DNA of 64,000 nt, from contig JAMPAI010000006.1 of assembly GCA_023667315.1 (NCBI GenBank), forward strand, positions 61,358 to 125,357. Reading direction: 5' to 3'. This DNA is from Ruminococcus flavefaciens (GTDB taxonomy: Bacteria; Bacteroidota; Bacteroidia; Bacteroidales; P3). This document shows positions 14,432-64,000 of the stretch, piece by piece. The position numbers and the translations under genes were made by a program. Numbering within the stretch: position 1 is the first letter of the stretch; each line of letters opens with the position of its first letter. Under the pieces are notes generated by a model, which saw only the letters and a list, made by a program, of their open reading frames with translations, had not been told where the DNA came from and did not search any database.

Positions 14432-17182
14432 ATGTACAAACTTTCATATTTTAGTGCTACGAATCTGATCGGATTCTTATCTGGGCTCGGTCGTCATAAA
14501 GTAACGATTGATCTTGAGGATTTTCTTGATAAGGAGATCCTCATTGTTTGCGGTGCCAATGCATCGGGAAAGAGTACGTTTCTGTCATTGGTTCACCCAT
14601 CTCCGTATCCCACAAATGGGAAACGTAAGTTTGTTATCAAGGGGAAAGAAGGTCTCCTTGTTCGTAAATATACATCCACCGATGGTACAGTAATCACTAC
14701 GAAGTGTGTCTATAAACCAAAAAGAGACGGCGGTCATAATGCTAGTTGTTTCTTTGAAATTAAGAAGCGCGGCGAAGAACCAATCGAACTGAATCCAACG
14801 GGGAACGTTACCTCCTATGAGGAGTTATTATATACGTACTTCGGAGTCACCAAGGACTTCTTGAGCTTTGCATCTTTCAACAACGATGTTGCGAATATCG
14901 TCAAGATGACAGATACGGAGCGGAAGAATAGTATTGGAACACTGGTTCCGAATACCTCTCGTTTTGAGGTTGGTTACAACATCGTAAATGATAAGTATCG
15001 TGACCTCCGAAATCTGGTTCGCAATCTTTCACAGCAGATTTTGACTCTCCGAGATGAGGATGCTATGGAGAGTGATATGAAGCGTTTATCTACTGAGTTG
15101 AGACGATATACGGAGGAACGAGAAGAACGCATCCGTGAATTGGGAACATTGGAAGGTCAGTTGAAGCAACTTACCAAGGGTGAGGATATAGATTCGCTGA
15201 CCGCCAAATATGATTCTGCTGTGGCATTGGAAATCTCTCAGGGTATCAATGCTGATCGAACATATCACAATTTGATGAAACTCTATAAGAAACTTGGTAT
15301 TACTCCTCTTAAGGAGGGAAGTATCAACTTTGATGGAATCGATCAAGTGGCATCTAATATTATGAAGTATGATCGAAAGGCGTTAAACTGTGAAGATCGA
15401 CTAAACTCATATGACCAGCATAAGAAAGAACTCCAGAAACAGTTGGTAGATACAGAGCGCGAGATCGCTGAGTTGGAATCTTCTCTGTATAGTATCCAAA
15501 CTGAGGATATTGGGGAATTGAAGAAAACTCGCAAGGAGTATGAAGATCGATTGGCCGAAATGCGATACAGCGCCAATAAAGGTCAGTATGATGGAATGAG
15601 TTATGAGGAAATCATTAACTTTTCCAGATATATCGGTCCGATTAATACGATGATTCAGGCTTTATATGATGAGTATGGTCAGCTAGTGACGGAGTACTTT
15701 GAGTCCTCCAGTTGGGAAGATTTCAATATTCGGCAGAGAGAGCAGATCGATCATCTGACTGTATCATTACAAACTACCTCACGTAAGAAGGATGAGATCT
15801 ATCAAAAACTGATTGAGAATCAACAGTATGCCAGGATGGGTGAGGTATTGAAGCTTCGTCCGATTAGCTGCACGATTGATACCTGCCCATTCATTGCTGA
15901 GGCTCTGAAGTGGCGTAATGTAGCAGATGACATCACGATGCTTCAAGAGCAATATGCAGCATCTATGCTTCAGATTGATGAAGATTCCGATAGGCTGAGT
16001 CGTATGCAAAGAAGCTTGGGAATTCATTCGGATGCACAGAATCTGATTCGATACATTCAGTCGTCGTTCCCATTGATTCAGAAGTATCTTGGTGTTAAGG
16101 ATATCCGTGATATCTACATCGCGATCGCCAAGGGTACATGGGAATCCATTTTCGATATCATGAAGCTGAAGGATCTTGCGGCAATCTTATCAGAGAAGGA
16201 TCTGTATCTGGAGATTACGATGCAGAGAATCCCTGAATTGGATCATGCAATCGAGCTCGCTCAGGTATATGGCACCAACCGTGATTTGCTGAATAGTCAA
16301 TTGGATCGAGCCAGAGAAATGCGGAAAATGATTCTTTCCAACCTGGATGTTCATGATATGCATCATTTCGTGTATCAGGAACAGATCGGTCGATATCGTG
16401 AACTGTATAGACTTTGGTCTGATGTGGATGCCAATATTAAAATGTATCAAGAGATTGTGACATCTCAGTTGGGCGCCCATGAACAAGCCGCGGAGCAAGA
16501 GGGTCTCATCAAACAGATCAAAGAGATCGATCAGAAGTGTCGTAAGTTGGATGCGACAATTCGGGAGCTGGATGATCTGATTCGAGATAGGATGCCAGTC
16601 AGAGAAAGATTGAAACTTGATTTGGATGCAGTCCGTAGACTGAAGATTCAGAAACTGGAAGTTGAGAGACATTTCACTGTAATCGATGTCGTGCGAGCCA
16701 TTATGTCCCCTGGTAAGGGTATCCGAAAAGAGCTCATCAATCTGTATATGTATGAGATTTATCAGATTGCGAATCAGTTACTGTTGAATACGTTTGATGG
16801 AAAACTGTATCTGAAAGAATTCCTTATCACGGATAAAGAGTTCATCATCCCCTATGTATACAACGGCACAGAATCACCAGATATCTCATTTGCATCATCA
16901 GCACAACAGGCGATTATCTCATCTGCCATCAGCTTGGCAATCTTGTCAAAACTCGTGGATAAGTATGGTATCTATACACCAGATGAATTGGAATCCCCGT
17001 TGAATCCAGCAATGAAAGATGGATATATCAACATCTTAGTGAAACAGATGCACTATGTAGGAATCACGCAGGCGATCATGATCACACAGCACCCGAAGCA
17101 TTATGAGCCTTACAATGTAGGGTACATCTGTTTCCCAGGCGCAGAACTGGATAGCAAAAATCTGGATTTCATAGAAATCTAA
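14432..17182 (+). CDS. SbcC/Rad50/T4 gp46-like recombination ATPase
   Basis: Residues 39-48 (CGANASGKST) are a Walker A box after a short N-terminal strand pair, as in SMC/Rad50 ATPases. Two long coiled-coil arms follow (about 190-370 and 590-760). Between them ISCTIDTCPF (~480) is in the place of the Rad50 zinc hook, though with C-x4-C-P rather than CxxC. The C-terminal lobe has FASSAQQAIISSAISLAIL, equivalent to the ABC signature region (LSxGE weakened), and MITQHPKHYEPYN near the end. Such proteins pair with an Mre11/SbcD/gp47 nuclease to process DNA ends. No gp47 gene is adjacent; a DHH phosphoesterase follows instead. Confidence 0.85.
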   Translation: MYKLSYFSATNLIGFLSGLGRHKVTIDLEDFLDKEILIVCGANASGKSTFLSLVHPSPYPTNGKRKFVIKGKEGLLVRKYTSTDGTVITTKCVYKPKRDGGHNASCFFEIKKRGEEPIELNPTGNVTSYEELLYTYFGVTKDFLSFASFNNDVANIVKMTDTERKNSIGTLVPNTSRFEVGYNIVNDKYRDLRNLVRNLSQQILTLRDEDAMESDMKRLSTELRRYTEEREERIRELGTLEGQLKQLTKGEDIDSLTAKYDSAVALEISQGINADRTYHNLMKLYKKLGITPLKEGSINFDGIDQVASNIMKYDRKALNCEDRLNSYDQHKKELQKQLVDTEREIAELESSLYSIQTEDIGELKKTRKEYEDRLAEMRYSANKGQYDGMSYEEIINFSRYIGPINTMIQALYDEYGQLVTEYFESSSWEDFNIRQREQIDHLTVSLQTTSRKKDEIYQKLIENQQYARMGEVLKLRPISCTIDTCPFIAEALKWRNVADDITMLQEQYAASMLQIDEDSDRLSRMQRSLGIHSDAQNLIRYIQSSFPLIQKYLGVKDIRDIYIAIAKGTWESIFDIMKLKDLAAILSEKDLYLEITMQRIPELDHAIELAQVYGTNRDLLNSQLDRAREMRKMILSNLDVHDMHHFVYQEQIGRYRELYRLWSDVDANIKMYQEIVTSQLGAHEQAAEQEGLIKQIKEIDQKCRKLDATIRELDDLIRDRMPVRERLKLDLDAVRRLKIQKLEVERHFTVIDVVRAIMSPGKGIRKELINLYMYEIYQIANQLLLNTFDGKLYLKEFLITDKEFIIPYVYNGTESPDISFASSAQQAIISSAISLAILSKLVDKYGIYTPDELESPLNPAMKDGYINILVKQMHYVGITQAIMITQHPKHYEPYNVGYICFPGAELDSKNLDFIEI

Positions 17183-17183
17183 G

Positions 17184-17194
17184 TATATATTATA
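17184..17194 (+). promoter_or_regulatory. promoter-like motif TATATATTATA
   Basis: Exact copy, directly after the stop of the gp46-like gene and 46 bases before the DHH phosphoesterase start. No terminator separates the two, so both read-through and a new start are possible. Confidence 0.6.
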
Positions 17195-17239
17195 ATAGTA
17201 GAGATCCAATCTCTATACTACACTTAGGAGGTAATAACC

Positions 17240-18418
17240 ATGATCTCTGTCAGAGACTCAATTGCGAATTGGGTCACAATGAATAATCCGAATATCTATC
17301 GGATTCATTTAAGCCATACCGATCTTGATGGGTATGGCTGTCAACTCATTACGCACTCAGCCGAAATGCTGCGCAAACTCCGCAACCGCATGTATGCTAA
17401 TTATCGGCCTATCATGTACGGTAATATGACCTACGGTAAGGCTGATCAGGCCGATCAAATCGCTGAGATGGTAGATATCGCTATCTCGAAAGGGTATCAC
17501 AAAGGCGAGCACGTCCTCTCATTCCTGGTCTCTGATATCGCACGTTTCGACCCTGTTGATATGTTCCATGAATTGATTGATGATGGTCATTTGGTTCATT
17601 GGTTGATTGTTGATCACCATGTGGATCATCTGAACCTGAAAGATCTTCCTAGAACTACCATCGGTATCCCTGGCAGCTATAGCGATAAACTGCATACTGG
17701 TGTATACATCGACACCGGGCATAGTGCTACCTACCATCTCGAAGAGATTATGATGCCTCATGTTCTGGACAATATTGAATTTGGGCATCGAGCTGTACCA
17801 TCGTTAGGTATATCTCCTATCAGAGCAATTCTGCGCAATATCCATTATACTGCCGGAGCTATATCAGCTTCCGATACCGGTAACTGGGGAAATTGGGCGG
17901 ACCATCTCCGTGATCGAGAGCCACCCACACTAGCATTAACATTACGGTTACTGTTCCAGCAGTATGACGAGTATGGTATGCCAGAGCAATGGATGTGGGA
18001 CGAATTGTATAAGCTGTTCCGGTTTACTGGTCATTTCATAGTTGGCCATCCGGACGATATTGTGTATCGGCAGAAGAGTATGATCCGTCAGAAATGGGCC
18101 GCCCTATGCGTCTGGTATATGTCGGCGGAAGAGTGTATCAAACCACTGGCGGACTATGATCGGTTTAAAGGTCTTAACGGTTATCCAGTCTTTGAACTGT
18201 TCGATAGACCGGAGTGGCCCATTGGTCACATGTTCAGCATGATCTCGGCCGAAATTCTGCGGAAGAATCCACACATCGGAATCCTTTTGTACGACAACAA
18301 AGATGAAGGCTCCATCAGTCTGCGCACGGCAAAAGATAATATTAACTGTGCAGATATCGCCCGGCTGAATGGTGGCGGAGGTCATCCGAAAGCCGCCGGG
18401 TTTGATTACGAAGACTAA
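17240..18418 (+). CDS. DHH-family phosphoesterase
   Basis: Family signatures are visible in order: HTDLDGYGC (residues ~27-35, metal ligands), SDIARFD (~95), VDHHVDH with D125-H126-H127, and a C-terminal DHHA1 motif GGGGHPKAAG (~378-387). This is the layout of NrnA/RecJ-type enzymes, which hydrolyse nano-RNA, cyclic dinucleotides or single-stranded DNA. At 392 residues it is closer to NrnA than to RecJ. Its place right behind the gp46-like ATPase suggests DNA-end or nucleotide-recycling work; cleavage of host cyclic-oligonucleotide alarm signals is another possibility. Substrate cannot be told from sequence. Confidence 0.88.
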   Translation: MISVRDSIANWVTMNNPNIYRIHLSHTDLDGYGCQLITHSAEMLRKLRNRMYANYRPIMYGNMTYGKADQADQIAEMVDIAISKGYHKGEHVLSFLVSDIARFDPVDMFHELIDDGHLVHWLIVDHHVDHLNLKDLPRTTIGIPGSYSDKLHTGVYIDTGHSATYHLEEIMMPHVLDNIEFGHRAVPSLGISPIRAILRNIHYTAGAISASDTGNWGNWADHLRDREPPTLALTLRLLFQQYDEYGMPEQWMWDELYKLFRFTGHFIVGHPDDIVYRQKSMIRQKWAALCVWYMSAEECIKPLADYDRFKGLNGYPVFELFDRPEWPIGHMFSMISAEILRKNPHIGILLYDNKDEGSISLRTAKDNINCADIARLNGGGGHPKAAGFDYED

Positions 18419-49585: not shown

Positions 49586-49675
49586 TGGCAACAATGATAT
49601 AATGACACAGAGATAGTGTCATTGGGAATATTCTCATTCATAAAAATTTCGTATACGAAAGGTGGTTTTATCTCT

Positions 49676-50878
49676 ATGGCTACAGTTGCTATTGCACGCC
49701 TTGGTGCGATCCTCAAGATCGGCACTGACAAGGAGTTCATTGTCAATGAAGGCGACTGCATCCAGGGCCTGGTTTACAATTCTGGTAAGACCCAGGTCGA
49801 ACTGGATGGTTGCGTGCGCGTAATCTGCGCCCGGACAACCAACTACACCGGCGGTCCCACGGACTGCCCTCCCAATCCTTACACTCAGAACTATATCTCC
49901 GTGACCCAGCTGATCATCGATGCTTCTACTGAGCACAATGCGATGATCCATCGCGTCAACGTCTCTGACATCGTTGACATCAGCAAGGTTCTGCCTGAAC
50001 ATGGTGCGGATGACGGCACTGTTCCCACGACTACTGTCGGCGGCGAGAATTCTGAGTACAAGACCCTGCAGGATGCCATCGACGCGATGGAGCGCGGTGA
50101 TCTGGAGGGTGAGCTTTCTCTGGAGGCTGATATGTCCGAGATGGTTACCATTAAGGGCGATGTCACCATCAACCTGAATGGTCACACTCTGACTCCTCCG
50201 GCAAACGAGAGTAACGCTGCATACAACCACGTCTTTGTGGTCGACGGTGGCAACCTGACCATCAATGGAGAGGGTGAGGTCATCGCCAACGGCAACCAGA
50301 GCTACTGCGTCTTCAATGCCGGCCCCAATGACAATTGGCTGCCTGGTCGCGTTCCTTCCACCAGTATGGGCGAAGGTACTGTGACCATCAATGGTGGTAC
50401 CTTCCGTCAGGCCGGTGAGGATCTGGCTCATAACGGCTATTGCATCGTCAACCACGGTGCTTCCATGACCATCAACGACGGCGAGTTCGGGATGGAGTTC
50501 AACCGCTCTTCTCTGATTGCCAATGGTTATCAGGGTACTCCTGAGAGTGTCTCCGTGATGACCATCAATGGTGGTACCTTCAACGGCGGCCGTCATACCC
50601 TGAACAATGACCACGGTGGTGTGCTGAAGGTCACTGGTGGTACCTTCATCATGGGCGAGCCCTGGGATGAGGAGATGAAGACTGGTCCCAAGAACGTCCT
50701 GCGTAATGAGGACACCGGTAAGACCACTGTGACCGGCGGTACCTTCACTGGTAACGTCGAGAACAGCAATGAGGCTGAGAACTCCCTGGTGATCTCCGGC
50801 GGTACTTTCACCGCTGACGTGAAGGCATACCTGCTTGCCGGCTGCACCCAGGATTCCACCGGTAAGGTTAGCAAGTAA
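49676..50878 (+). CDS. beta-solenoid virion/appendage protein, 400 aa (paralogue A)
   Basis: ATG 49676 behind AAAGGTGG. Residues 1-105 are shared with the next gene (NEGDC..GL.Y..., LDGCVRV-CART--YTG-PT-CPP-PY, TQLIID-STEH). The C-terminal ~280 residues are a repeated beta-solenoid with the recurring unit (V/M)TINGGTF, seen about seven times, and Asn/Gly ladders. Codon choice is strongly G/C-ending, unlike most neighbours, as expected for an abundant structural protein. Likely a capsid decoration or fibre with a common attachment domain and a variable solenoid arm. Confidence 0.75.
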   Translation: MATVAIARLGAILKIGTDKEFIVNEGDCIQGLVYNSGKTQVELDGCVRVICARTTNYTGGPTDCPPNPYTQNYISVTQLIIDASTEHNAMIHRVNVSDIVDISKVLPEHGADDGTVPTTTVGGENSEYKTLQDAIDAMERGDLEGELSLEADMSEMVTIKGDVTINLNGHTLTPPANESNAAYNHVFVVDGGNLTINGEGEVIANGNQSYCVFNAGPNDNWLPGRVPSTSMGEGTVTINGGTFRQAGEDLAHNGYCIVNHGASMTINDGEFGMEFNRSSLIANGYQGTPESVSVMTINGGTFNGGRHTLNNDHGGVLKVTGGTFIMGEPWDEEMKTGPKNVLRNEDTGKTTVTGGTFTGNVENSNEAENSLVISGGTFTADVKAYLLAGCTQDSTGKVSK

Positions 50879-50925: not shown

Positions 50926-50955
50926 TATATAAAATAACGAAAGGTGGTTATTTTT

Positions 50956-52233
50956 ATGGCAAATGTCCGTGCTAGAATCGGTGCGATTCTGACCTTCAAG
51001 GATGGCAGTACTGCTACTGTCAACGAGGGTGATTGTGTTACCGGTCTGCGCTACACGTACAACAAGAAGGAGTACACACTGGACGGCTGTGTGCGGGTTG
51101 TTTGTGCCCGTACTGCGGCATACACTGGCACTCCTACGACCTGTCCTCCGGAGCCGTATGTGCACAACTATGTCACTCCCACTCAGCTCATCATCGACAG
51201 CTCCACGGAGCATCATGCGGTGATGACCCGGGTCAATATCGCCGATATCCTCAGTATTGAAGACGTCAGTACTGGCCATGGTGAGGAGAACATCTCCGTC
51301 GGCGTTGGTCCTCAGTACCGTCCTCTGTCTGAGGTTCTTGCGGCTGCTGAGCCTGGTTCTGTCATCGAGCTCAAGGGTGATACCTTTGAAGATGATATTG
51401 TCATTAAGAACGGTGTCATGTTGTCCTGTGATGATAAGACAGTCCTGGCTGGCGCCGTGAAGTTCGAAGGCAGTGGCTTCATCATGGGTGGTATGATCAC
51501 TGGTCCTATCACCATGAACACTGTACCTGCCGAGGGTGATACGGAATCTGCACCCGTAAACGTAGTACTCTCCAACGTAGAACTGACCGAGAAGGGCACC
51601 ATTGAAGTCTATGCAATCGACCGGTTGACTGTCGAGAACTGCTACTTCCATGACCACGTCTTCGAGGCCTCTAAGGGTTATATGATCCGGATGCGCACCG
51701 AGGCCAACATGGTGATCGATATCCGCGACAATACCTTTGGCCCTGAGCCCGCCGCATGTTACAACTACATCGAGTGCCTTGCCAAGCTTGGCGATGGTTC
51801 CCGTGTCGTCAAGAACATGTGCCTGGATAAGTGCTGCTCCCACAATGTGGTGAACTTCTACAATGCCCAGGATGGCGCTACCATCGTGGTCAGTGACAAT
51901 GAGCATGCGACTGCGGACTTTATGCGGATCGGCTTCAAGGGCAATGTCCAGGATGTCACCGTCCGTCTGGAGAACAATGTCTTCGGTCCCTGTGTCCGTA
52001 TTGATCCGGCCTATAATGGCTATCTCTGCGTCCAGCCGTATGGTACTGCTACGACCTCTTTCAAGGGCGTAACCATCGAGCTGAACAACAACGAGTGCGA
52101 TGTGGTTCAGGAGATGCACCTGCTGACCACCAGCACTACGCTGGCCTGGACGAAGGAGACCATGCCCACTGTCATCATCGACGGCGCTGTGCAGCATATG
52201 CCTACTCCTAAGGCAGCCGTGTCCACCTATTGA
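50956..52233 (+). CDS. beta-helix virion/appendage protein, 425 aa (paralogue B)
   Basis: ATG 50956 behind AAAGGTGG. Residues 1-105 are clearly homologous to paralogue A (NEGDCVTGL.YTYN, LDGCVRVVCART). The rest (~300 residues) is another beta-helix (IELKGDTFEDDIVIKNGVML .. VENNVF) of a different repeat type, so the two share the base and differ in the arm. Same high-expression codon usage. Each has its own leader and terminator. Confidence 0.75.
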   Translation: MANVRARIGAILTFKDGSTATVNEGDCVTGLRYTYNKKEYTLDGCVRVVCARTAAYTGTPTTCPPEPYVHNYVTPTQLIIDSSTEHHAVMTRVNIADILSIEDVSTGHGEENISVGVGPQYRPLSEVLAAAEPGSVIELKGDTFEDDIVIKNGVMLSCDDKTVLAGAVKFEGSGFIMGGMITGPITMNTVPAEGDTESAPVNVVLSNVELTEKGTIEVYAIDRLTVENCYFHDHVFEASKGYMIRMRTEANMVIDIRDNTFGPEPAACYNYIECLAKLGDGSRVVKNMCLDKCCSHNVVNFYNAQDGATIVVSDNEHATADFMRIGFKGNVQDVTVRLENNVFGPCVRIDPAYNGYLCVQPYGTATTSFKGVTIELNNNECDVVQEMHLLTTSTTLAWTKETMPTVIIDGAVQHMPTPKAAVSTY

Positions 52234-52782: not shown

Positions 52783-52828
52783 ATGACGGGGTCCCGACAA
52801 AAATCGGGACCCCGTCATAAATTTTTTC
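52783..52828 (+). terminator. strong intrinsic terminator
   Basis: Perfect 15-bp stem (ATGACGGGGTCCCGA and complement), loop CAAAAA, then AAATTTTTTC. Confidence 0.96.
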
Positions 52829-52892
52829 TAGATGCCCCTACATGCATGAAATCGAACATTCCTATAATCAAATTACAAAAGGAAGTGAGATC

Positions 52893-55124
52893 ATGAAGGG
52901 GTACTCACCTCAAACGATGGAATCCTTTACATTGGATGTCCGTACGCCGAACGTGAGTGCTATTAAGATGGCCGTTCTTTTGGAAAGCATGGGAGTAGAT
53001 AATTACTACTTCATGCTGAAACTAATCGATAAAGATCTACAAGGTGTGGACCCATATGATGAGGAAAATCTGACGGATGAATTGAAACTGAAGATTTTCC
53101 TTGAATGCTCCAAAAACCGTTGGTATTTTTATCGTGAAGTCTACCGCGTTGTAGAAAACGGTGCATCTACCGGCATTGGTGGTGGTAGTCCTTTTATTTT
53201 TAACCGTGGTAACTTGGCATATCTATGGGCAATGGAGATGAATCTCTGTACATACCTAATCATGCCTCGTCAGACGGGTAAAACGTGGGCGGCAATCGCT
53301 GACTACACTTGGACATATCACTTCGTTCGCGGTTCTACGCTATTACACTTTAATAAGAATCAGAAAGACTCCAACGACAACATTCGCCGTATTCAGCAGT
53401 CGATTCAGATGCTCCCCAAGTGGATGCAGCATAGTAACATCGACAACCTGGAAGGCTCTGAGAAGAGAACTGTTCGTAACAATGAAAAGACTGTTCGAAA
53501 TACGATTGGATCTTGCATCGAAGCGATGGCATCTGCTGGTAATGAGTCTAAGGCCGATGCAATCGCCCGTGGTCGTACTTCTAGTAAGATTTGGTACGAC
53601 GAAATGGCTTTTATTTTCTTCAACGAAACCATTTATGACGCCGCAACGCCTGCTTACGAAAAGGCCCGTGAATTGGCTGAAATGAATGGCGCTCCGTATG
53701 CAATCAGCATCACTACAACTCCTGGTGACCTTGCTACTCCCCATGGAGCCTGGGCGTATAAGATGATGAGCGATTCTGTCATCTTCCGTGAAGAGATGTA
53801 TGGATGGTCTGCCAAGAAGCTGAACAACCGCGTCAATCATCCGCAGGACAAAGTCCCGTTCTTATTCATTCAGTATAGTTACTTGCAGCTTGGTGAGACT
53901 GAAGATTGGTATCTGGATCGTTACAAGAAGATGCATAATCCGATCAGAGCTCGTCGTGAATACCTGCTCGAATGGATGAACACCAACGGCAACTCTCCGT
54001 TTGATCCGGATGACGTTGATACGATTGGTGAAATCTCTCGCCAGCGTGATCTGAACGTTCAGGTAGTTCGTATCAATAAGTATTATGAGATGCGGGTCTA
54101 TGATGAATATCACGGACGGAAACCTGTTATCATCGGTTGCGACGTCTCTACCGGTCGTGGACGCGACTCCAGTACTATGGTTGTCGTACATCCTGAGACA
54201 CTACTGCCATTGGCTATCTTTAAGAGTAATATGATCGACTCGAAACCATTCCGAAAAGTGATACAGACAGTAGTCACTCGAATGTACCCGAACTGTATCC
54301 TGGCAATCGAAAACAACGCAATCGGTGCACAGTTGATCTCCGAAATTCTGGATAGTCCCATTGGTCGTTGTCTGTATAAAGAGAGAAAGAAGAAAACAAA
54401 AGAATACGGTGCAAATCCCGTTACCTCCAAGAAACGCAAAGTGGATGACATCGTATATGGATTTGAGACTTCTTCTACTACTCGTCCGCAGATGACGGAG
54501 ATGCTGGAATCTATCGTTCATAACTCTCCCAATCATCTTGGGTTCCAAGAGCTGTATGAAGAGATTCGATTCCTTGAATTGCGCAATGGGCGTATCGATC
54601 ATGGTCCTGCAACCCACGACGACGTTGTCATGGCTTATATGGGCGCCCTTTGGGTTGTCCGTTATGGTACTGGTCTTAAGGGACGCGGTATTTACTACAA
54701 CATCGACGACGGTATGGATGATCTGGAAGAAATCCGGAGAGATTCTGCAGATGCTATGCGCACTGCAGCAAGGATTCTAAAAGATCGTGGCAGGGCTAAG
54801 ACTGATGAGGAAAAAGCTGAAGAAGAACTCATTGACTATATGACGCGAGAGCATCATGTACAGAGTTCTGAAGACTTAGCTCATGCTGAAAGAATGTCCT
54901 ACTTCCAGGAACTTGATCGCATTCAGGGTATTCTTGTAGAGGAAGACGAGCCTGAATTCCATGTTTCGCAAGAAACTGAGAATCTGCTCCTCCGTAATTA
55001 TCACGCTTTAATGAACATGGACCCCTATGCTGACGACCCGGTGCAAGGTTTGCTCAATCTCCCCTTGGCTAGTCGGGGAGGACCGGATAGTGGCGGGAGT
55101 TTCATGGATGCCTACCGGTGGTAG
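52893..55124 (+). CDS. terminase large subunit (DNA-packaging ATPase/nuclease)
   Basis: ATG 52893 behind AAAGGAAG. The ATPase has Walker A RQTGKT at 126-131 and Walker B IWYDEMAF with D236-E237, then the coupling segment SITTTPGD. The nuclease half has IIGCDVSTG with D417, LAIENNAIG (~470) and THDDVVMAY at ~574-577, the three acidic positions of the RNase H-like domain. At 743 residues it is slightly long; the extra C-terminal ~100 residues are helical. It cuts and pumps DNA into the procapsid. No small terminase is evident nearby. Confidence 0.93.
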   Translation: MKGYSPQTMESFTLDVRTPNVSAIKMAVLLESMGVDNYYFMLKLIDKDLQGVDPYDEENLTDELKLKIFLECSKNRWYFYREVYRVVENGASTGIGGGSPFIFNRGNLAYLWAMEMNLCTYLIMPRQTGKTWAAIADYTWTYHFVRGSTLLHFNKNQKDSNDNIRRIQQSIQMLPKWMQHSNIDNLEGSEKRTVRNNEKTVRNTIGSCIEAMASAGNESKADAIARGRTSSKIWYDEMAFIFFNETIYDAATPAYEKARELAEMNGAPYAISITTTPGDLATPHGAWAYKMMSDSVIFREEMYGWSAKKLNNRVNHPQDKVPFLFIQYSYLQLGETEDWYLDRYKKMHNPIRARREYLLEWMNTNGNSPFDPDDVDTIGEISRQRDLNVQVVRINKYYEMRVYDEYHGRKPVIIGCDVSTGRGRDSSTMVVVHPETLLPLAIFKSNMIDSKPFRKVIQTVVTRMYPNCILAIENNAIGAQLISEILDSPIGRCLYKERKKKTKEYGANPVTSKKRKVDDIVYGFETSSTTRPQMTEMLESIVHNSPNHLGFQELYEEIRFLELRNGRIDHGPATHDDVVMAYMGALWVVRYGTGLKGRGIYYNIDDGMDDLEEIRRDSADAMRTAARILKDRGRAKTDEEKAEEELIDYMTREHHVQSSEDLAHAERMSYFQELDRIQGILVEEDEPEFHVSQETENLLLRNYHALMNMDPYADDPVQGLLNLPLASRGGPDSGGSFMDAYRW

Positions 55125-55139
55125 ACCGGCAATAAGGGA

Positions 55140-55170
55140 AGAGGGTGGCGCAATGCCACCCTCTTTTTAC
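55140..55170 (+). terminator. intrinsic terminator
   Basis: Stem AGAGGGTGGC / GCCACCCTCT, loop GCAAT, then TTTT. Confidence 0.93.
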
Positions 55171-55179
55171 CCCTCCGCA

Positions 55180-55193
55180 ACAAACATATAACG
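55180..55193 (+). promoter_or_regulatory. shared 14-mer ACAAACATATAACG
   Basis: Identical 14 bases occur at 34328-34341, also upstream of the first gene of a + strand unit. CATATAAC may be a -10-type box of a second promoter class. Located between a terminator and the appendage gene at 55253. Confidence 0.5.
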
Positions 55194-55252
55194 AGAGAAA
55201 TGCTCTCAGTGACCATATATCGAATCTTAATCTCAATGGAGGTGAATACATT

Positions 55253-55942
55253 GTGGCAATTGTGAAACAGCGAATCTATCAGAAGTTCGGAGAAGGTCCG
55301 AAAGACTATAAGATCGTACACATTGAAACGTCTAGCGACATTGTTATGAGACCTGATAAGCTGAACGATGAAGGCGATCAAATGTCGGTCGAAGAGGCTA
55401 TGCTGATCATCGAAAAATTTCTCAAAATTATCTCCGATAGATTCGATGGTGATGGCGTACTGAAACCGGAATACGGCGGCACAGGTGATGATGAGGGTAT
55501 TGCGGATACTGCTAGAAAGCTGTTGAATTCGCATACTTTCATCACTAACCTTGCCAGTGCGGCCGCTGGAAAATTTGATGGCACCCAGGATGTAAGTCTT
55601 GGTGTCACAGGTGTTCTTTCGGCATCACATGGTGGTACCGGTGTATCTTCTTTGGCAGGTGCACTGTACAAGTTTCTTACCGAACCGGATGCTTTAACTT
55701 CCACTGGTTTGGCGGCCAATGACTACGTTGGTATTGCTGATGTCAGTGGAAACAATGGCAAGAAGGTCACAATCCAAGATCTGGCTACATTCATCGCAAC
55801 ACTTATCACCACTAAACCCTACATGCGTCAAAACACTGCTCCCGCCAATACCGAAATTCTCTGGATCGATAGCGGTAACTCCGATATCGTCAAGTACTAT
55901 AACGGTACTTCTTGGGTTGCAATCAAGACTGCATGGGCATAA
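55253..55942 (+). CDS. fibre/appendage protein with shared N-terminal module, 229 aa
   Basis: GTG 55253 behind GGAGGTG. Residues 1-45 (VAIVKQRIYQ .. YKIVHIETSSDIVMRPD) are the same module as the 25.5-28.3 kb fibres. Next come a helix, then PEYGGTGDDEGIADTARKLL and SHGGTGVSSLAGALYKFL, the YGGTG / HGGTG repeats found in phage fibre shafts. It ends in a C-terminal beta domain with TEILWIDSGNSDIVKYYNGTSW, typical of phage tail proteins. Placed 27 kb from its relatives. Confidence 0.75.
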   Translation: MAIVKQRIYQKFGEGPKDYKIVHIETSSDIVMRPDKLNDEGDQMSVEEAMLIIEKFLKIISDRFDGDGVLKPEYGGTGDDEGIADTARKLLNSHTFITNLASAAAGKFDGTQDVSLGVTGVLSASHGGTGVSSLAGALYKFLTEPDALTSTGLAANDYVGIADVSGNNGKKVTIQDLATFIATLITTKPYMRQNTAPANTEILWIDSGNSDIVKYYNGTSWVAIKTAWA

Positions 55943-55961: not shown

Positions 55962-56423
55962 ATGGCTGAAGGAAATATGAATGAGGTCCTCGTTCTGTTG
56001 GGCGATCTCTCCCTCGGGCTCGGTACGAATGACGTAGAGCTCACTAAAACAACTGTCGCCGAACTGAACAAGTTCACGTTCGCAGAGAGTGCAGCATCCA
56101 GCATCATTGACGTGGTCCGGAACCGTACATACGGCCCGAACGTCGCTGAGATGATGAACGATGCATACTTCTATGCACTTGAGAATCTGGATGTGATCCC
56201 GGATAAGGAATTCCAGAAGATCTATGCTCGGTCCCGCAAGGCATTGGAACTGGCAGATGAGACCGAGATGAAAGCAATCCTGAAAGAGGCTGTTGAGAAT
56301 GATATTCCTACCATTACGAATAAGAATACCGTTCTCAATTTCGTCTCTATTCTCTACCGGTTCTGCACCCGTCTGAACGACTACGTCTCTATGAAAGCCA
56401 TCCGTGATAAAGTAGGTGAATAA
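55962..56423 (+). CDS. hypothetical helical protein, 153 aa
   Basis: AAAGGAGG site. Almost entirely helical with no motif recognised. It lies between a fibre gene and the Cys-rich gene, with a two-base gap to the latter, so it is probably co-expressed and may take part in the same structure or modification system. Confidence 0.65.
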   Translation: MAEGNMNEVLVLLGDLSLGLGTNDVELTKTTVAELNKFTFAESAASSIIDVVRNRTYGPNVAEMMNDAYFYALENLDVIPDKEFQKIYARSRKALELADETEMKAILKEAVENDIPTITNKNTVLNFVSILYRFCTRLNDYVSMKAIRDKVGE

Positions 56424-56425
56424 TT

Positions 56426-57244
56426 ATGGCAAGCGGCGGAAATATCGGCTGCGGCTGTGAGGGTTCCTGCTGGGCACAGTGTTCTGAAGACTGCGGTGAT
56501 GGTAGTTGCGTAGGCATGTGCCAACATCAATGCTTCGGATGTGATAACACTTGCGAAGGTCAATGTGAAGATAAATGTGCTACTGCTTGTAGTGGCAAAT
56601 GCTCGGGATGTGGTGGGCAGTGTTCCAATGACTGCACCGGCTGTGGCGGTTGCGACGGTAGCTGTTCTGGATGCGGCGGTTGTGATTACACCTGTTCTGG
56701 TAATTGCGGATCCGATTGTACGGGGTATTGTACGACTACCTGCTCTGGTACATGTGATGGCGGATGCAATGAAACTTGCGTGTCAGGGTGCGCATACACT
56801 TGTAATACAGGATGTAAAGATACCTGTGTATCTGGATGTGCATATACATGCGTAGGCGAATGTATCGGTTGTACCGGATCCTGTCAAGGATGCGATGCAT
56901 GTACGGGGACGTGTAAGGGATACTGCGACAATGGTTGTTCGTCAACCAGCACATCTCAACAGTACAACTCCCTCGGTATTGGCCCGATTGTTGTCGGTAG
57001 CGAAGTGCGTGCTATCCAGACCTGTATCCGTAATGAGATGACTCGACGCGGACGTAGTGCGACTGCTACTGATACTATCACGGCAAATACCCCAGCATTA
57101 CAAGCTGTCATCACCCATATCTACAATGACTGTCGTACCGTTGGTTACAGCGGTGGCGCACCGGCAAATTACCCTCGTGCTGCTGAGGTCAATAGCATGA
57201 TCTCATATATCAAAACCCTATATAGTCAAAATCTCAGGGCATAA
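56426..57244 (+). CDS. 44-cysteine repeat protein with folded C-terminal domain (possible radical SAM substrate)
   Basis: 272 residues. The first ~175 contain 44 Cys, mostly spaced CxxxC with interspersed CxxC (for example CEGQCEDKCATACSGKC, CVSGCAYTC), Gly/Ser/Thr between them and almost no hydrophobics. Residues ~180-272 (QQYNSLGIGPIVVGSEVRAI .. SYIKTLYSQ) form a separate helical domain with two more Cys. There is no signal peptide. A small gene and a radical SAM/SPASM enzyme follow at once. CxxxC repeat proteins beside radical SAM genes are known thioether-peptide substrates; 44 residues in one chain is far larger than usual. It could also be a metal-binding or disulfide-rich appendage. 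Confidence 0.7.
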   Translation: MASGGNIGCGCEGSCWAQCSEDCGDGSCVGMCQHQCFGCDNTCEGQCEDKCATACSGKCSGCGGQCSNDCTGCGGCDGSCSGCGGCDYTCSGNCGSDCTGYCTTTCSGTCDGGCNETCVSGCAYTCNTGCKDTCVSGCAYTCVGECIGCTGSCQGCDACTGTCKGYCDNGCSSTSTSQQYNSLGIGPIVVGSEVRAIQTCIRNEMTRRGRSATATDTITANTPALQAVITHIYNDCRTVGYSGGAPANYPRAAEVNSMISYIKTLYSQNLRA

Positions 57245-57265
57245 TAAATTATGGAGGAAACTATC

Positions 57266-57571
57266 ATGAGCAAGCAAACCATTAAAATTGAAACTGAACT
57301 GTGTACCCGCATCGAGGCGCTTCATCTGGAAACCGAAGCTCGGCGTCAGGTGGTTGTCGGCTGTATCGATTCCGGGATGGATCAGAACAGCGAGAACTTC
57401 AAAAAGTACCATCAGACATACATGGAGTTTTTCACTCTCTATCAGCACGCTAAGCGCGAGCTGGAGGAAACGTACATCCATCCGGTTACCGGTTCCAATT
57501 CTGGTGCACGCTGGAATCTTCAGTACAGCACTGCCGAAGTCACCATCGAGTTCCCCGGTGATAAGAAATGA
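57266..57571 (+). CDS. small partner of the radical SAM enzyme, 101 aa
   Basis: ATG 57266 behind ATGGAGG; its stop overlaps the radical SAM start (ATGA). A helical, Cys-poor protein (EFFTLYQHAKRELEE) of about 100 residues. Radical SAM peptide maturases often have a small precursor-recognition or accessory protein next to them. No RRE winged-helix pattern is evident, so the role is unproven. Confidence 0.6.
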   Translation: MSKQTIKIETELCTRIEALHLETEARRQVVVGCIDSGMDQNSENFKKYHQTYMEFFTLYQHAKRELEETYIHPVTGSNSGARWNLQYSTAEVTIEFPGDKK

Positions 57572-58869
57572 GACCGAAGGTTCAAGAATACCACGACACC
57601 ATCGCCCGGCTATTTCCAGATCCAAATCGATCGGTACGAGCAGTGACATTACAGGTCACAGACTCCTGTAACCTGAGGTGCACATACTGTTATCAAATAT
57701 GCAAACAGTCCCATATTATCGATATTGATACGGCAAAGAAATATCTGCTCCACATTCTGGAAGGAGATAATCCCTATATCAACTTTGATAACACTTGTGG
57801 GATTGTTCTGGAATTTATCGGCGGAGAACCTTTTATTGCTATCGATGTAATCTCTGAGATCACGGAATGGGTATACCAGTACATGATTGACCACAATCAT
57901 CCGTGGATGCACCGTTTTAAGATCTCCATCTGCAGTAATGGAGTTCTGTATTTCGATCCGAAAGTCCAAGCATATCTGAACAAATGGCATCGCATCATGT
58001 CCTTATCGATATCGATCGATGGGTGTAAAGAGCTCCACGATGCATGTCGGATTTTCCCGTCCGGTGAAGGAAGCTATGATATTGCGGCAAAAGCTGCAAA
58101 GGATTGGATCTCTCGGTATGGGGAATTTGGTCTCGGATCCAAAATGACCTTCGCGCCTGAAAATGTTGCCTGGGTCAGTCGAGCCATCATTAATCTCATT
58201 ACAGAGTTCGGTTTCAGATCCATTAACTGTAATTGCTGTTTTGAGGAAGGCTGGACACTTGAGCATGCTCAAATCTTATACCATGAGTTGAATAAAACGA
58301 CAGATTGGTTAGAAGAGCACAATCTCATGGATGATGTGTATATTAGCATCTTCACCGAGACTGGTTTCTGCCCTATGTCGCCGGAAGATAACCGTAACTG
58401 GTGTGGCGGTACCGGTGAAATGATCGCGGTTGACTGGAAAGGTGATATCTATCCATGTATCCGATACATGGAAAGCTCACTCGGAACTGATGCTCCGCCG
58501 CTGATTATCGGAACGGTAGACGGTGGAATACAGGCTACCCAAGAACAGTGCGAACGAGTCCAGTGTCTGCAATGTATCACCAGAAGATCTCAATCGACAG
58601 ATGAATGCTGGAACTGCCCAATCGCATCGGGCTGTGCATGGTGTTCTGGATATAATTATCAAAAGTTTGGCACAGTAAATCATCGAGCCACCTTTATATG
58701 CGTTATGCATAAAGCTCGTGCACTGGCTAATGCATACTTTTGGTATAAGTATCATAAACATCATCCGACTGAACCGTGGAATGATAACTACTGCATTCCT
58801 AATGAATGGGCACTTGAAATCATCGGTGAGGATGAACTGAACAGACTGAAAGCTGTCATGGCTGAATAA
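57568..58869 (+). CDS. radical SAM/SPASM peptide maturase
   Basis: Residues 34-41 (CNLRCTYC) are the CxxxCxxC that holds the [4Fe-4S] cluster binding S-adenosylmethionine; FIGGEP at ~92-97 is the GGE motif. The C-terminal half has a complete SPASM pattern: C-x12-G-x4-C near 279-297, then CWNC-x5-CAWC and a last Cys in FICVMHK, for two auxiliary clusters. This is the architecture of anaerobic sulfatase-maturase and sactipeptide/thioether enzymes. Being coupled to a small protein and a 44-Cys protein, the likely job is cross-linking or otherwise modifying that protein. At 433 residues the enzyme looks intact. Confidence 0.9.
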   Translation: MRPKVQEYHDTIARLFPDPNRSVRAVTLQVTDSCNLRCTYCYQICKQSHIIDIDTAKKYLLHILEGDNPYINFDNTCGIVLEFIGGEPFIAIDVISEITEWVYQYMIDHNHPWMHRFKISICSNGVLYFDPKVQAYLNKWHRIMSLSISIDGCKELHDACRIFPSGEGSYDIAAKAAKDWISRYGEFGLGSKMTFAPENVAWVSRAIINLITEFGFRSINCNCCFEEGWTLEHAQILYHELNKTTDWLEEHNLMDDVYISIFTETGFCPMSPEDNRNWCGGTGEMIAVDWKGDIYPCIRYMESSLGTDAPPLIIGTVDGGIQATQEQCERVQCLQCITRRSQSTDECWNCPIASGCAWCSGYNYQKFGTVNHRATFICVMHKARALANAYFWYKYHKHHPTEPWNDNYCIPNEWALEIIGEDELNRLKAVMAE

Positions 58870-58871
58870 GA

Positions 58872-58907
58872 AATACCCCGGGGATGATCCCCGGGGTATT
58901 CTATTTT
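58872..58907 (+). terminator. intrinsic terminator
   Basis: 13-bp stem AATACCCCGGGGA / TCCCCGGGGTATT, loop TGA, then CTATTTTATC. Confidence 0.92.
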
Positions 58908-61541: not shown

Positions 61542-62870
61542 TTATATAGCATGTCGAATTCGATTTAGTCCGCCTTGTTGTTTACGCGACGCTTTAAATG
61601 CCTCGTATCTCTTCTTATCGTAAAAGAGTTGCATTGCCATGTAGTTATCATAAGCCAATTCCAACGATTTATCACCTTCTTCAATATAAGGTTCTGTACG
61701 TCGAATGAGCATATAGAATCCTTCCTCGTCAACCAATCCCATCGGATCCTCCGTGGTGTGCGCTAAATCAACTTGATGATGGAACTGATATTCTTCATTA
61801 GCTTCCATGAGTTTCATTTTTGCCCATAGATATGCATAAAGAACCTTGGCAGTCTCACCATGTTTTGCATATGAGTACCACGATTCTACAGACGATATCG
61901 CCGATTGTATCGACAGTTCTCCAGACCGTACCAATTTCATCAGCACCTTGGTCCGACGTTCCATCCTTGCGATACTCTTCGAACGGATATGCATATCGAT
62001 CCCATGCGTGGCAGGATTATACCACATATGATATCCGAGAAAACATATACCTTGATTGAATGGATGAATATACGACTTCTTATTCAATTTAAGACTCAAC
62101 GAATCCCGAACAAATGTGTTTATTTCCTTCAATGCATGCGAGGCTTCATTTTTAGTATTACAGATCAGGAGAAAATCGTCCGCATATCTCCCGTAATATT
62201 TAACGCGCAATTTCTCTTTGACGAAATGATCCAATGGGTCTAAGTACATATTGGATAACCATTGTGAACATTGAAACCCGATACATAGACCGATGTCATC
62301 TGCGTCATCATCTACATACGGGTTTAATACAGCTGTACATGCATCAATCTGAATATACAGCAACTTGCGAAGAAGTTCATCTATCAATAATGAACCAATC
62401 ATCTGTTTACAGATAGTATGATCGATTGAATAAAAGAACTTAGCAATATCTCCAGCGACAACCCAACCATCATTTGAAAAGTTCTGTTGATTGACATGAG
62501 ACATCATAAAATGCTGAATTCGCTGTACTCCATGATGAGTTCCTTTTCCAGGCTGACTTGCATAATTATCATGTATGAAACGCGGCATTAGAATAACCCG
62601 CAATACTCGTTTGCACAGTACATCTTGTACGATTTTATCTTCAAAGAAATCAGCAATAACATCTCGCTCTTTTGGTTCATACACCTTAAAGGTACTAACT
62701 CGATCGAGATAATATTTACCGCTTTTTAATCGATTTAATAGATGCACAAGATTCTTATGTAAATTCATATGATACCGAATTGATATCTCACGAAACTTCT
62801 TTCCTCTGCGTACTATATAATATGCTTCTCGAAGCGTTTCAATGGTAAACGCTTCATCGAATGTAATCAT
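61542..62870 (-). CDS. DGR-type reverse transcriptase
   Basis: ATG 62870 is preferred (GGTGAT upstream; a frame extending to 62969 runs through a hairpin and reads as non-conserved). Conserved RT blocks in order: QPGKGTHHGVQRI (~107-118), GDIAKFFYSID with D141, GFQCSQWLSN at 198-207 and YGRYADDFLL with YADD at 229-232. The G-x-x-x-SQ form instead of QG-x-x-SP is the mark of DGR reverse transcriptases. At 442 residues it has the usual RT core plus a thumb. It copies the template repeat with errors at adenines. Confidence 0.92.
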   Translation of the reverse strand: MITFDEAFTIETLREAYYIVRRGKKFREISIRYHMNLHKNLVHLLNRLKSGKYYLDRVSTFKVYEPKERDVIADFFEDKIVQDVLCKRVLRVILMPRFIHDNYASQPGKGTHHGVQRIQHFMMSHVNQQNFSNDGWVVAGDIAKFFYSIDHTICKQMIGSLLIDELLRKLLYIQIDACTAVLNPYVDDDADDIGLCIGFQCSQWLSNMYLDPLDHFVKEKLRVKYYGRYADDFLLICNTKNEASHALKEINTFVRDSLSLKLNKKSYIHPFNQGICFLGYHMWYNPATHGIDMHIRSKSIARMERRTKVLMKLVRSGELSIQSAISSVESWYSYAKHGETAKVLYAYLWAKMKLMEANEEYQFHHQVDLAHTTEDPMGLVDEEGFYMLIRRTEPYIEEGDKSLELAYDNYMAMQLFYDKKRYEAFKASRKQQGGLNRIRHAI

Positions 62871-62895
62871 AATTATCACCAGAAAGCGAAGAATT

Positions 62896-62919
62896 CGCCA
62901 TCCCCGAACAGGGATGGCG
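62896..62919 (-). other. hairpin in the spacer between template repeat and RT
   Basis: Stem CGCCATCCC / GGGATGGCG, loop CGAACA. DGR template RNAs are folded in this spacer, and a second stem CCCTTAT / ATAAGGG lies at 62991-63007. A role in priming or RT binding is inferred. Confidence 0.5.
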
Positions 62920-63090
62920 TTAAACGCGTATGTTGCGCTATGGCGCCTTTCGACGTCAACACCTCGCATACGACGTGCTATGTGGATTTTCCCTTATAGA
63001 ATAAGGGAGAGGACATAATTCCCTTGAACGTCATCTGATTTCGTCGAACGGAGGTTCCGTCCAAACTACTTTCCGCCTGTGACGCCCAAT

Positions 63091-63200
63091 CGACGTAGGG
63101 ACGGAACCCGTACGAGTTCGTCGGGTTGTTGTTGTTGTTGTTGTTGTTGATCGTCCCAGTAGTGTTGACGTAATAAACGTTGCTACTGTTCGGAGTTTAG
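63091..63200 (-). repeat. DGR template repeat (TR)
   Basis: Minus strand. From 63160 to 63091 the sequence matches the variable repeat at 64000-63944 except at adenines. It contains (AAC)8 followed by CCGACGAACTCGTACGGG and TTCCGTCCCTACGTCG. The left boundary is set by loss of match after CGTCG; the right end is uncertain because the variable repeat leaves the window at 64000. Translated in the frame of the target it reads N-rich then PTNSYGFRPY, the Asn (AAC) and Tyr (TAC) codons being the ones that mutate. Confidence 0.92.
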
Positions 63201-63241
63201 AATCATACCCTCATATATGTATGTTTACTGGGACGATCAAC
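63146..63241 (-). repeat. 16-bp perfect inverted repeat around the TR/avd junction
   Basis: GTTGATCGTCCCAGTA (63146-63161) and its exact complement TACTGGGACGATCAAC (63226-63241) are separated by 64 bases. One arm is inside the template repeat, the other covers the last codons and stop of avd. In the RNA they would pair and hold the 5' part of the template in a stem. Confidence 0.85.
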
Positions 63242-63746
63242 GTCTCTTCAGTATCGCAAACCCATCGGCATCTCGCTTTGTAACACCGACAGTCGAATTC
63301 TTTTGCGCTTTATACATATCATCATTAATTCGCTTAATCTTCCGTTTAATATTTTTAACCCATCGTTCATGATCATCTATAATAGCAGTGAACATTGTTG
63401 CACAATGATCCATGTTGATTGCGAATCCATCAGCCTTTAATGATTCTAGTACCATTAATAAGGCTTGAATATCCAATATATCATCGAATACCAAATCTTG
63501 AATGTTTCTAATCTTTTGCAGATCTTGTTGAGTCTTACTTTTCACATTCAGCCCTCGATATACATGCTTCATCAAGGTGAGTGAACTGTTTCGAAGCTGA
63601 TTAACTAAATCACCTCGGTATTGTTTTGGAAACTTTTGCGGATCTCGCGTCACAGTATAAATCCAATGAACGAAATCCTCTGTAGTAATTGCAATAGCTG
63701 ACATTGGTCGATTCTTTCTGTGTTTTAGATACGCAGGTGTGCCCAT
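63237..63746 (-). CDS. avd: Avd-like accessory variability protein
   Basis: 169 residues between the diversified gene and the template repeat, the usual place of avd. The body (TEDFVHWIYTVTRDPQKFPK .. RGDLVNQLRNSSLTLM) and the three later helices fit the four-helix, positively charged barrel of Avd, which binds the RT and RNA for mutagenic copying. Lys/Arg rich (IKRKIKRINDD, ILKRR). At 169 it is somewhat longer than typical (~125), with ~20 extra residues at each end. Its stop lies within the inverted repeat of the template region. Confidence 0.85.
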   Translation of the reverse strand: MGTPAYLKHRKNRPMSAIAITTEDFVHWIYTVTRDPQKFPKQYRGDLVNQLRNSSLTLMKHVYRGLNVKSKTQQDLQKIRNIQDLVFDDILDIQALLMVLESLKADGFAINMDHCATMFTAIIDDHERWVKNIKRKIKRINDDMYKAQKNSTVGVTKRDADGFAILKRR

Positions 63747-63929: not shown

Positions 63930-64000
63930 TTAGAACGGCAACGCGACGCAGGGACGGAACCCGCACGAGTTCGTCGGGGTGCTGTAGCCGATCGTCCCAG
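63930..64000 (-). CDS. DGR-diversified target gene, 3' end only
   Basis: Minus strand, open from the right edge to TAA at 63930-63932. The visible end reads GTIGYSTPTNSCGFRPCVALPF. GFRP-x-x-x-L near the end is the typical close of DGR-variable C-type lectin or formylglycine-generating-type domains. It holds the variable repeat. By analogy it is a receptor-binding tail protein; most of it lies outside the window. Confidence 0.88.
   Translation of the reverse strand, partial: GTIGYSTPTNSCGFRPCVALPF
63944..64000 (-). repeat. DGR variable repeat (VR), partial
   Basis: Aligns with the template repeat at 63091-63160. All substitutions are at template adenines: AAC to GGC, TAC, AGC and ACC, and two TAC to TGC. 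After CGTCG the sequences diverge (TR ATTGGGCG, VR CGTTGCCG). GGGTTCCGTCCC, without A, plays the part of the G/C-rich IMH. VR has four codons where TR has eight AAC. Confidence 0.92.

Follow-up and report, generated by a model that had tools for sequence, protein, structure and literature searches.

The DNA analysed here (the window) is a stretch of 64,000 nucleotides from contig JAMPAI010000006.1 of assembly GCA_023667315.1, a genome bin labelled Ruminococcus flavefaciens and placed by GTDB in the Bacteroidales. Towards its end lies a three-gene cassette that encodes a protein built largely of CxxxC repeats, a small partner and a radical SAM/SPASM enzyme whose start codon overlaps the stop codon of the partner (ATGA). 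A first-pass annotation, made from the sequence alone, had read these genes as a phage cross-linking system, and all three lie where it had placed them:

56426-57244 (+): CxxxC-repeat protein of 272 residues with 46 cysteines, the proposed substrate
56450-56938 (+): cysteine-repeat region of that protein, residues 9-171, 44 cysteines spaced mainly by 4 or 3
56942-57241 (+): C-terminal domain of about 100 residues (the D domain), with invariant E204, R207 and R208; N-terminal in most relatives that bear it
57251-57571 (+): small partner of the phage partner family, 106 residues from the first ATG and 101 from the ATG at 57266
57568-58869 (+): radical SAM/SPASM maturase of the TIGR04115 family

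The repeat protein is extreme in composition. The first-pass annotation had given 44 cysteines in about 175 residues, and we counted 44 in residues 9-171, at spacings of 4 (32 times), 3 (9 times), 2 (once) and 5 (once). Because cysteine makes up 1.33% of the ten other predicted genes of the window (46 in 3,458 residues), the open reading frame (ORF) lies far outside chance. It matches phrog_6085 (E = 1.2e-5). TIGR04118, the AC3_0185 family of cysteine-rich ribosomally synthesized and post-translationally modified peptides (RiPPs), is by its name likewise a cysteine-rich target of radical SAM enzymes, but the window protein scores 13.8 bits against it, under the cut-off of 35. No twin-arginine translocation (TAT)-like signal or other export signal was found on the protein. 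Asp or Glu is present in 14 of its 32 CxxxC units.

The enzyme had been taken for a maturase of cysteine-repeat peptides, and a hidden Markov model search places it in a family of that description. Among NCBIfam models, TIGR04115 ('radical SAM peptide maturase, CXXX-repeat target family') scores highest, at 404.5 bits against a cut-off of 350; the runner-up, the PapB ranthipeptide maturase model NF047865, reaches 145 bits, below its cut-off of 340, and the Pfam match is weak (18.3 bits against a cut-off of 29.5). Besides passing the TIGR04115 cut-off, the enzyme has the full motif set and a CXXX-repeat target next to it. The motifs comprise C34-x3-C38-x2-C41, GGEP at residues 85-88 and the seven SPASM cysteines C279, C297, C347, C350, C356, C359 and C378, and all ten cluster cysteines are invariant in an alignment of six sequences that includes the window. 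The closest solved relative is the SCIFF maturase CteB (PDB 5wgg, E = 2e-39), and the enzyme also matches phrog_1802 (E = 3.5e-60).

The partner, previously described as a 101-residue protein (its length from the second ATG above), scores 95.1 bits against a profile of 66 phage partners built without the window sequence. Profiles of phage and chromosomal partners match each other with an hhalign probability of 97.1, and the phage-only profile finds 24 of the 35 chromosomal loci with a known partner, those 35 having been found with a profile that includes one chromosomal sequence (L018; fetched loci are numbered with the prefix L). By profile comparison, the phage partner family is related to TIGR04116. 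We judged two further matches of the partner to be chance: Pfam MA3 (8.3e-4, under its cut-off) and NikR (0.041).

Relatives of the enzyme came from viral scans (8, then the best 80 of 149), a genomic scan (the best 80 of 434) and a tblastn search of 50,697 phage records, of which 81 match. After removal of near-copies of the enzyme, 118 phage-type loci became 99: 66 viral (L017 and every non-redundant IMG/VR locus) and 33 genomic. A genomic locus was called phage-type by a match to the D domain or by membership of a hand-listed set of 11, 10 of which lack a D profile match. Two of the three outcomes that the first-pass annotation named as refuting its reading, an enzyme from a non-peptide radical SAM family and relatives lacking the cysteine-rich gene, did not arise. 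A CxxxC-rich ORF lies within 1 kb of the enzyme in 78 of the 99 phage-type loci and within 2.5 kb in 90 (61 of 66 viral, 29 of 33 genomic), whereas a single one of 829 more distant genes in the same loci is cysteine-rich by the same rule; these control genes were longest-ORF calls of at least 80 residues, beyond the three nearest genes on each side. A partner-like ORF is found within 1.5 kb of the enzyme in 71 loci. Phage radical SAM genes have been tied to DNA repair and host metabolism (PMC8541153, in the part of the article available to us), and the enzyme might accordingly be an unrelated auxiliary enzyme that happens to stand beside a low-complexity ORF. We regard this as highly improbable because of the co-occurrence just described; TIGR04115, moreover, is not a metabolic family.

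The target genes vary widely. Cysteines number 11 to 145 per ORF (median 38.5, 108 ORFs), lengths reach 1072 residues, and at least two cysteine-rich ORFs occur in 10 loci. Repeat length changes even among relatives whose enzymes are 82-86% identical: 72 versus 41 cysteines in L043 and L047, and 73 versus 86 in L044 and L052. As separate observations on such targets, L031 (2828-9238) and L062 (2967-8631) have five and six consecutive cysteine-rich genes, of 16-104 cysteines each, with one enzyme. L034 encodes a distinct protein of 81 cysteines at 16758-17852, 5.4 kb from the enzyme, with CSCN/CADGC-like repeats and an N-terminal part of its own. A clade of six loci (L076, L077, L079, L080, L082 and L087) combines enzyme ORFs of 602-773 residues with targets of 766-1072 residues and 86-90 cysteines in a conserved but less regular pattern.

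Chromosomal CXXX systems join TIGR04115, TIGR04116 and TIGR04119 to targets of the TIGR04114/04117 type (for example, in L018 and L173), and have in common with the phage loci the radical SAM family, an adjacent CXXX target and a small partner related by profile. In L018 a cysteine-rich target with a TAT-like start, a TIGR04115-like enzyme, TIGR04119 and TIGR04116 stand in a row; of the 44 chromosomal loci, 32 have a cysteine-rich ORF and 41 a partner. The phage form differs in that the D domain replaces both the TAT signal and TIGR04119. A TIGR04119-like second maturase is encoded at 43 of 44 chromosomal and none of 99 phage-type loci, and none was found among the eight window genes scanned. 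TAT-like signals begin 30 of 47 targets on the chromosomal side and 3 of 103 on the phage side, and those three look by eye like D-domain helices. The phage form also adds D in most loci, is located in tail modules and reaches 145 cysteines in a single target. In a tree of 136 enzymes, 45 chromosomal rows make up one side of a branch with full support (100*) and the window falls among the 90 phage rows, its nearest relative being L021 (58%), with L106, from an Oscillospiraceae bin, close by. This tree was built by a quick method, from at most 90 of the 99 phage-type enzymes plus the window and without rows under 380 residues; its midpoint root serves drawing only, the SPN3US branch is very long and the phage label needs two changes. 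The window appears to belong to a separate, phage-side set of TIGR04115 systems.

The bin that contains the window has a chromosomal CXXX system of its own (L173, on contig C33 of genome G000), with a TIGR04115 enzyme at 638.9 bits that follows two cysteine-rich peptides with TAT-like starts and precedes TIGR04119-, TIGR04116- and TatA-like genes, the last three recognized by eye. Because the bin has this system whereas the nearest relative named with a host group, L106, is from an Oscillospiraceae bin, we make no claim that the binned bacterium is the host of the phage; the binning may be wrong.

The first-pass annotation had described a folded C-terminal domain on the repeat protein, and its last 100 or so residues do look conserved: E204, R207 and R208 do not vary in either of two alignments, of 46 and 45 sequences. 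In most phage targets a D domain of about 105 residues opens the protein and the repeats start directly after it. A corresponding C-terminal domain is present in the window and in L021, L029, L053, L089, L092, L106, L119, L120 and L129, several of them recognized by eye, and it is on these relatives and on the alignment of the three residues that the probable identity of the window domain with D rests. D was detected in 45 of the 66 viral loci by profile, or 48 when C-terminal forms judged by eye are included, and in none of the 44 chromosomal loci; because D matches helped to define the genomic phage-type loci, its distribution is an independent finding for the viral loci only. In the 164 fetched loci, the D profile matches 88 ORFs, every one of which has at least four cysteine pairs at step 3 or 4; the profile itself had been built from cysteine-rich ORFs. 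Because chromosomal systems have targets without D, the domain presumably serves the destination of the protein and not the enzyme. Among 45 members, Pfam gave one weak and unconvincing match, and none to the window domain; tblastn with the D domain in named phages found MT835573 alone, and nothing with the domain of the window. Profiles of D and of the partner had no convincing match among PDB sequences (best E values 0.0033 and 0.19).

The cassette stands at the end of a same-strand run of genes with short gaps that starts with terminase (52842) and ends with the enzyme (58869):

52783-52818 (+): terminator-like hairpin ahead of terminase, 15 pairs (consensus scan)
52842-55124 (+): terminase large subunit, which opens the presumed unit (phrog_32359, 2.6e-45; phrog_2, 4e-42)
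55145-55942 (+): tail-fibre-like protein (phrog_11393, tail fiber, 6.7e-12), C-terminal 'WID...KYYNGTxW'
55962-56423 (+): 153-residue protein with no family match, between the fibre-like and cysteine-rich genes
58872-58900 (+): terminator-like hairpin directly after the enzyme, 13 pairs and then T-rich (consensus scan)

The two hairpins that flank this run are the longest of the scanned stretch, where the scan found 14 against 6.1 in shuffled sequences; weaker matches of 5-6 pairs also occur inside the run. The cassette was thus correctly described as lying behind terminase and a fibre gene, with the 153-residue gene intervening. That protein has no homologue among the ORFs of the 164 fetched loci, and genes of 182-202 residues near three relatives are mutually unrelated by hhalign. 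No direct repeat was found at the contig ends.

The cassettes of relatives likewise sit behind tail genes. Of the 99 relatives, 17 have a fibre end of the WID...KYYNGTxW type no more than 6 kb upstream of the enzyme. We scanned 128 of 180 upstream and 141 of 174 downstream neighbours, leaving aside minus-strand ORFs, ORFs of at least 900 residues, some partner and cysteine-rich ORFs, five long genes of L079, L080, L082 and L087, and a few others (for example, in L105 and L125). Among the 25 commonest of 220 PHROGs upstream, 19 are named, without exception as tail fibre, baseplate, tail, minor tail or virion structural families. Downstream, 20 are named among the 25 commonest of 166 families: 17 endolysin, one holin, one tail fibre and one radical SAM. 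Individual families are thinly represented (no more than 9 of 128), and they overlap. In L140, on a Faecalibacterium chromosome, a baseplate hub, wedges, a structural protein, a 343-residue gene, the cysteine-rich gene, the radical SAM gene, a peptidase/endolysin and an integrase follow one another, an order that looks like that of an integrated prophage.

Placement between tail and lysis genes, which many cassettes share, is also compatible with a released RiPP-like factor: the same chemistry would then yield a bacteriocin, colonisation or conversion factor freed at lysis and outside the virion. TIGR04115 relatives are RiPP maturases, and L140 belongs to a prophage of a Faecalibacterium genome, both of which fit such a factor. 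The window protein, however, has no export signal, the eight window genes scanned include no match to a Pfam transporter or protease family, D is found in phage-type loci only, and targets of up to 1072 residues and 145 cysteines go far beyond the usual bacteriocins. Giant phages, which are not known to integrate, carry a related pair of genes near a tail gene. We therefore consider a released factor unlikely.

The giant phages carry a diverged cassette, found in all five records fetched from the 81 that match (SPN3US, EarlPhillipIV, CR5, pEa_SNUABM_29 and Wellington). Each has two tandem CxxxC proteins upstream of the enzyme:

L019/L020, 5070-5877: tandem cysteine-rich genes
L188, 4167-4963: tandem cysteine-rich genes
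L189, 4157-4962: tandem cysteine-rich genes
L190, 4157-4960: tandem cysteine-rich genes
L191, 4103-4929: tandem cysteine-rich genes

Four of the five records name a virion protein just before the pair and two radical SAM genes after it; in the fifth, pEa_SNUABM_29, all names are 'hypothetical'. Like the window, these phages combine a radical SAM enzyme (PHROG 1802) and a CxxxC protein (PHROG 6085; the two SPN3US proteins match at 7.5e-41 and 3e-41) near a tail gene. They differ in having two radical SAM genes, two tandem targets of about 130 residues with another N terminus and no partner found, and the SPN3US-like enzyme is 24.7% identical to that of the window and scores 125.6 bits, under the TIGR04115 cut-off. 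In SPN3US, the virion-protein gene follows that of protein 168, which PMC5105663 (in the portion available) describes as a tail protein resembling gp131, a component of the phiKZ baseplate periphery. Going by coordinates, the records give the correct reading frame for only 2 of the 10 giant-phage cysteine-rich ORFs, so earlier proteomic searches may have lacked database entries for these proteins. The N-terminal 45 or so residues of the two SPN3US ORFs (L019) contain Lys and Arg.

What the enzyme does to the repeats can be narrowed by their composition. PapB and SCIFF maturases act on short peptides with Asp/Glu or Thr as acceptors, and PapB-type ranthipeptides have a CX3-Asp/Glu acceptor in each repeat. 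PapB (NF047865) and CteB (5wgg) are the next-best model and the best solved relative of the window enzyme; unlike their substrates, the phage targets are long and most of their CxxxC units lack Asp and Glu. Spacer residues are mostly Ser, Thr and Gly, with Gly the commonest middle residue (37% of 3,524 CxxxC units), and because Asp or Glu occurs in 642 of those 3,524 units, linkage of cysteine to Asp/Glu cannot explain most repeats. The same count lends itself to another reading, in which the cysteines stay unlinked and serve as metal ligands, disulfides or adhesive free thiols, and the enzyme catalyses something else (such as epimerisation or an alkyl change at Gly, Ser or Thr) or has another substrate: PapB-type links cannot be the rule, and the cysteine density is metallothionein-like. 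Against this stand the tight co-occurrence with the enzyme and the TIGR04115 match, and a reducing cytoplasm generally disfavours disulfides; we hold unlinked cysteines to be quite unlikely.

We favour, with a probability of about 0.6, the interpretation that the cassette is a CXXX-repeat modification system carried by phages and dedicated to the tail. At a late stage of infection, a protein with tens of CxxxC units and a D domain would be made from the end of a terminase and tail-fibre operon. The radical SAM/SPASM enzyme would work along the repeats in the cytoplasm, helped by the TIGR04116-like partner, likely a chaperone of substrate or enzyme. Cysteine sulphur would be linked to nearby backbone or side-chain carbons (Ser, Thr or Gly) as thioethers, with a loss of 2 Da each. 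The links would probably be short, local, intramolecular rings, giving a stiff rod that does not need disulfides. By docking this rod on the tail fibre or baseplate, D might let it leave with the virion and without an export signal. The hardened appendage proposed by the first-pass annotation could be such a rod. What the sequences show is the family and motifs of the enzyme, the co-occurrence of the genes, D in place of the TAT signal and TIGR04119, and the synteny with tail genes; the reaction and its acceptor residues, the task of the partner, late expression as one operon, docking by D and presence in the virion are inferred. More tentatively, and at somewhat less than even odds, many tailed phages, from prophages of gut Firmicutes to enterobacterial giants, may have part of the tail tip or fibre made of a protein in which a phage radical SAM enzyme stitches tens to more than 100 cysteines into thioether rings.

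Several observations weigh against a tail-dedicated system. A search with N-terminal D domains misses the domain of the window, and hhalign relates the two with a probability of 60 over 23 columns. Parts of the set are missing from some phage-type loci: D from 27 of 99, the partner from 28 and any cysteine-rich ORF within 6 kb from 9, several of the last lying at contig ends, though not L084 and L101. The partner of the window has no match to TIGR04116 or to the chromosomal-only profile. Genes between tail and lysis modules can also be conversion genes. The SPN3US products gp165, gp166 and gp167 go unnamed in those portions of the main texts of PMC5105663, PMC5694885, PMC10052503 and PMC7411985 that were available.

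The first-pass annotation knew of no described phage system of this kind. We found no description in the open-licence literature, with bioRxiv outside this search, and neither a paper on the phage-tail form with D and without TIGR04119 nor one on TIGR04115 under its accession; the component families, by contrast, are on record. PHROGs holds phrog_1802 (radical SAM) and phrog_6085 (cysteine-rich) with no stated role, in giant-phage records the enzyme goes by the name 'radical SAM superfamily protein', and TIGR04115 is already known as a computationally defined model. The recurrence of similar gene sets behind the tail genes of many phages suggests that some viruses may build part of the tail from an enzyme-stapled protein. 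If so, phages would have a new route to a redox-proof and protease-proof part, the covalent stapling of a virion appendage by an enzyme, and radical SAM maturases would take on a new role beyond small peptides, with RiPP chemistry serving virus architecture. The phage form also offers a handle on the TIGR04115 family: given long targets, some of which sequenced strains carry in prophages, the reaction might be readable from induced virions.

Two other features of the window were noted. Ahead of the terminase hairpin lie adjacent genes for proteins of 420 and 429 residues (49616-50878 and 50944-52233), with N-terminal parts that look alike by eye and no PHROG match at 0.01. At the contig end is a likely diversity-generating retroelement on the minus strand (61542-62969 and 63237-63746), with a reverse transcriptase (phrog_1423, 2.2e-97) and a weak Avd match (0.0078). 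A repeat scan with 90-nucleotide windows found no repeat there, and the target gene seems to run off the contig; a 60-nucleotide template and variable pair, at 63084-63143 and about 63937-63996, has 10 mismatches at template A and 5 elsewhere.

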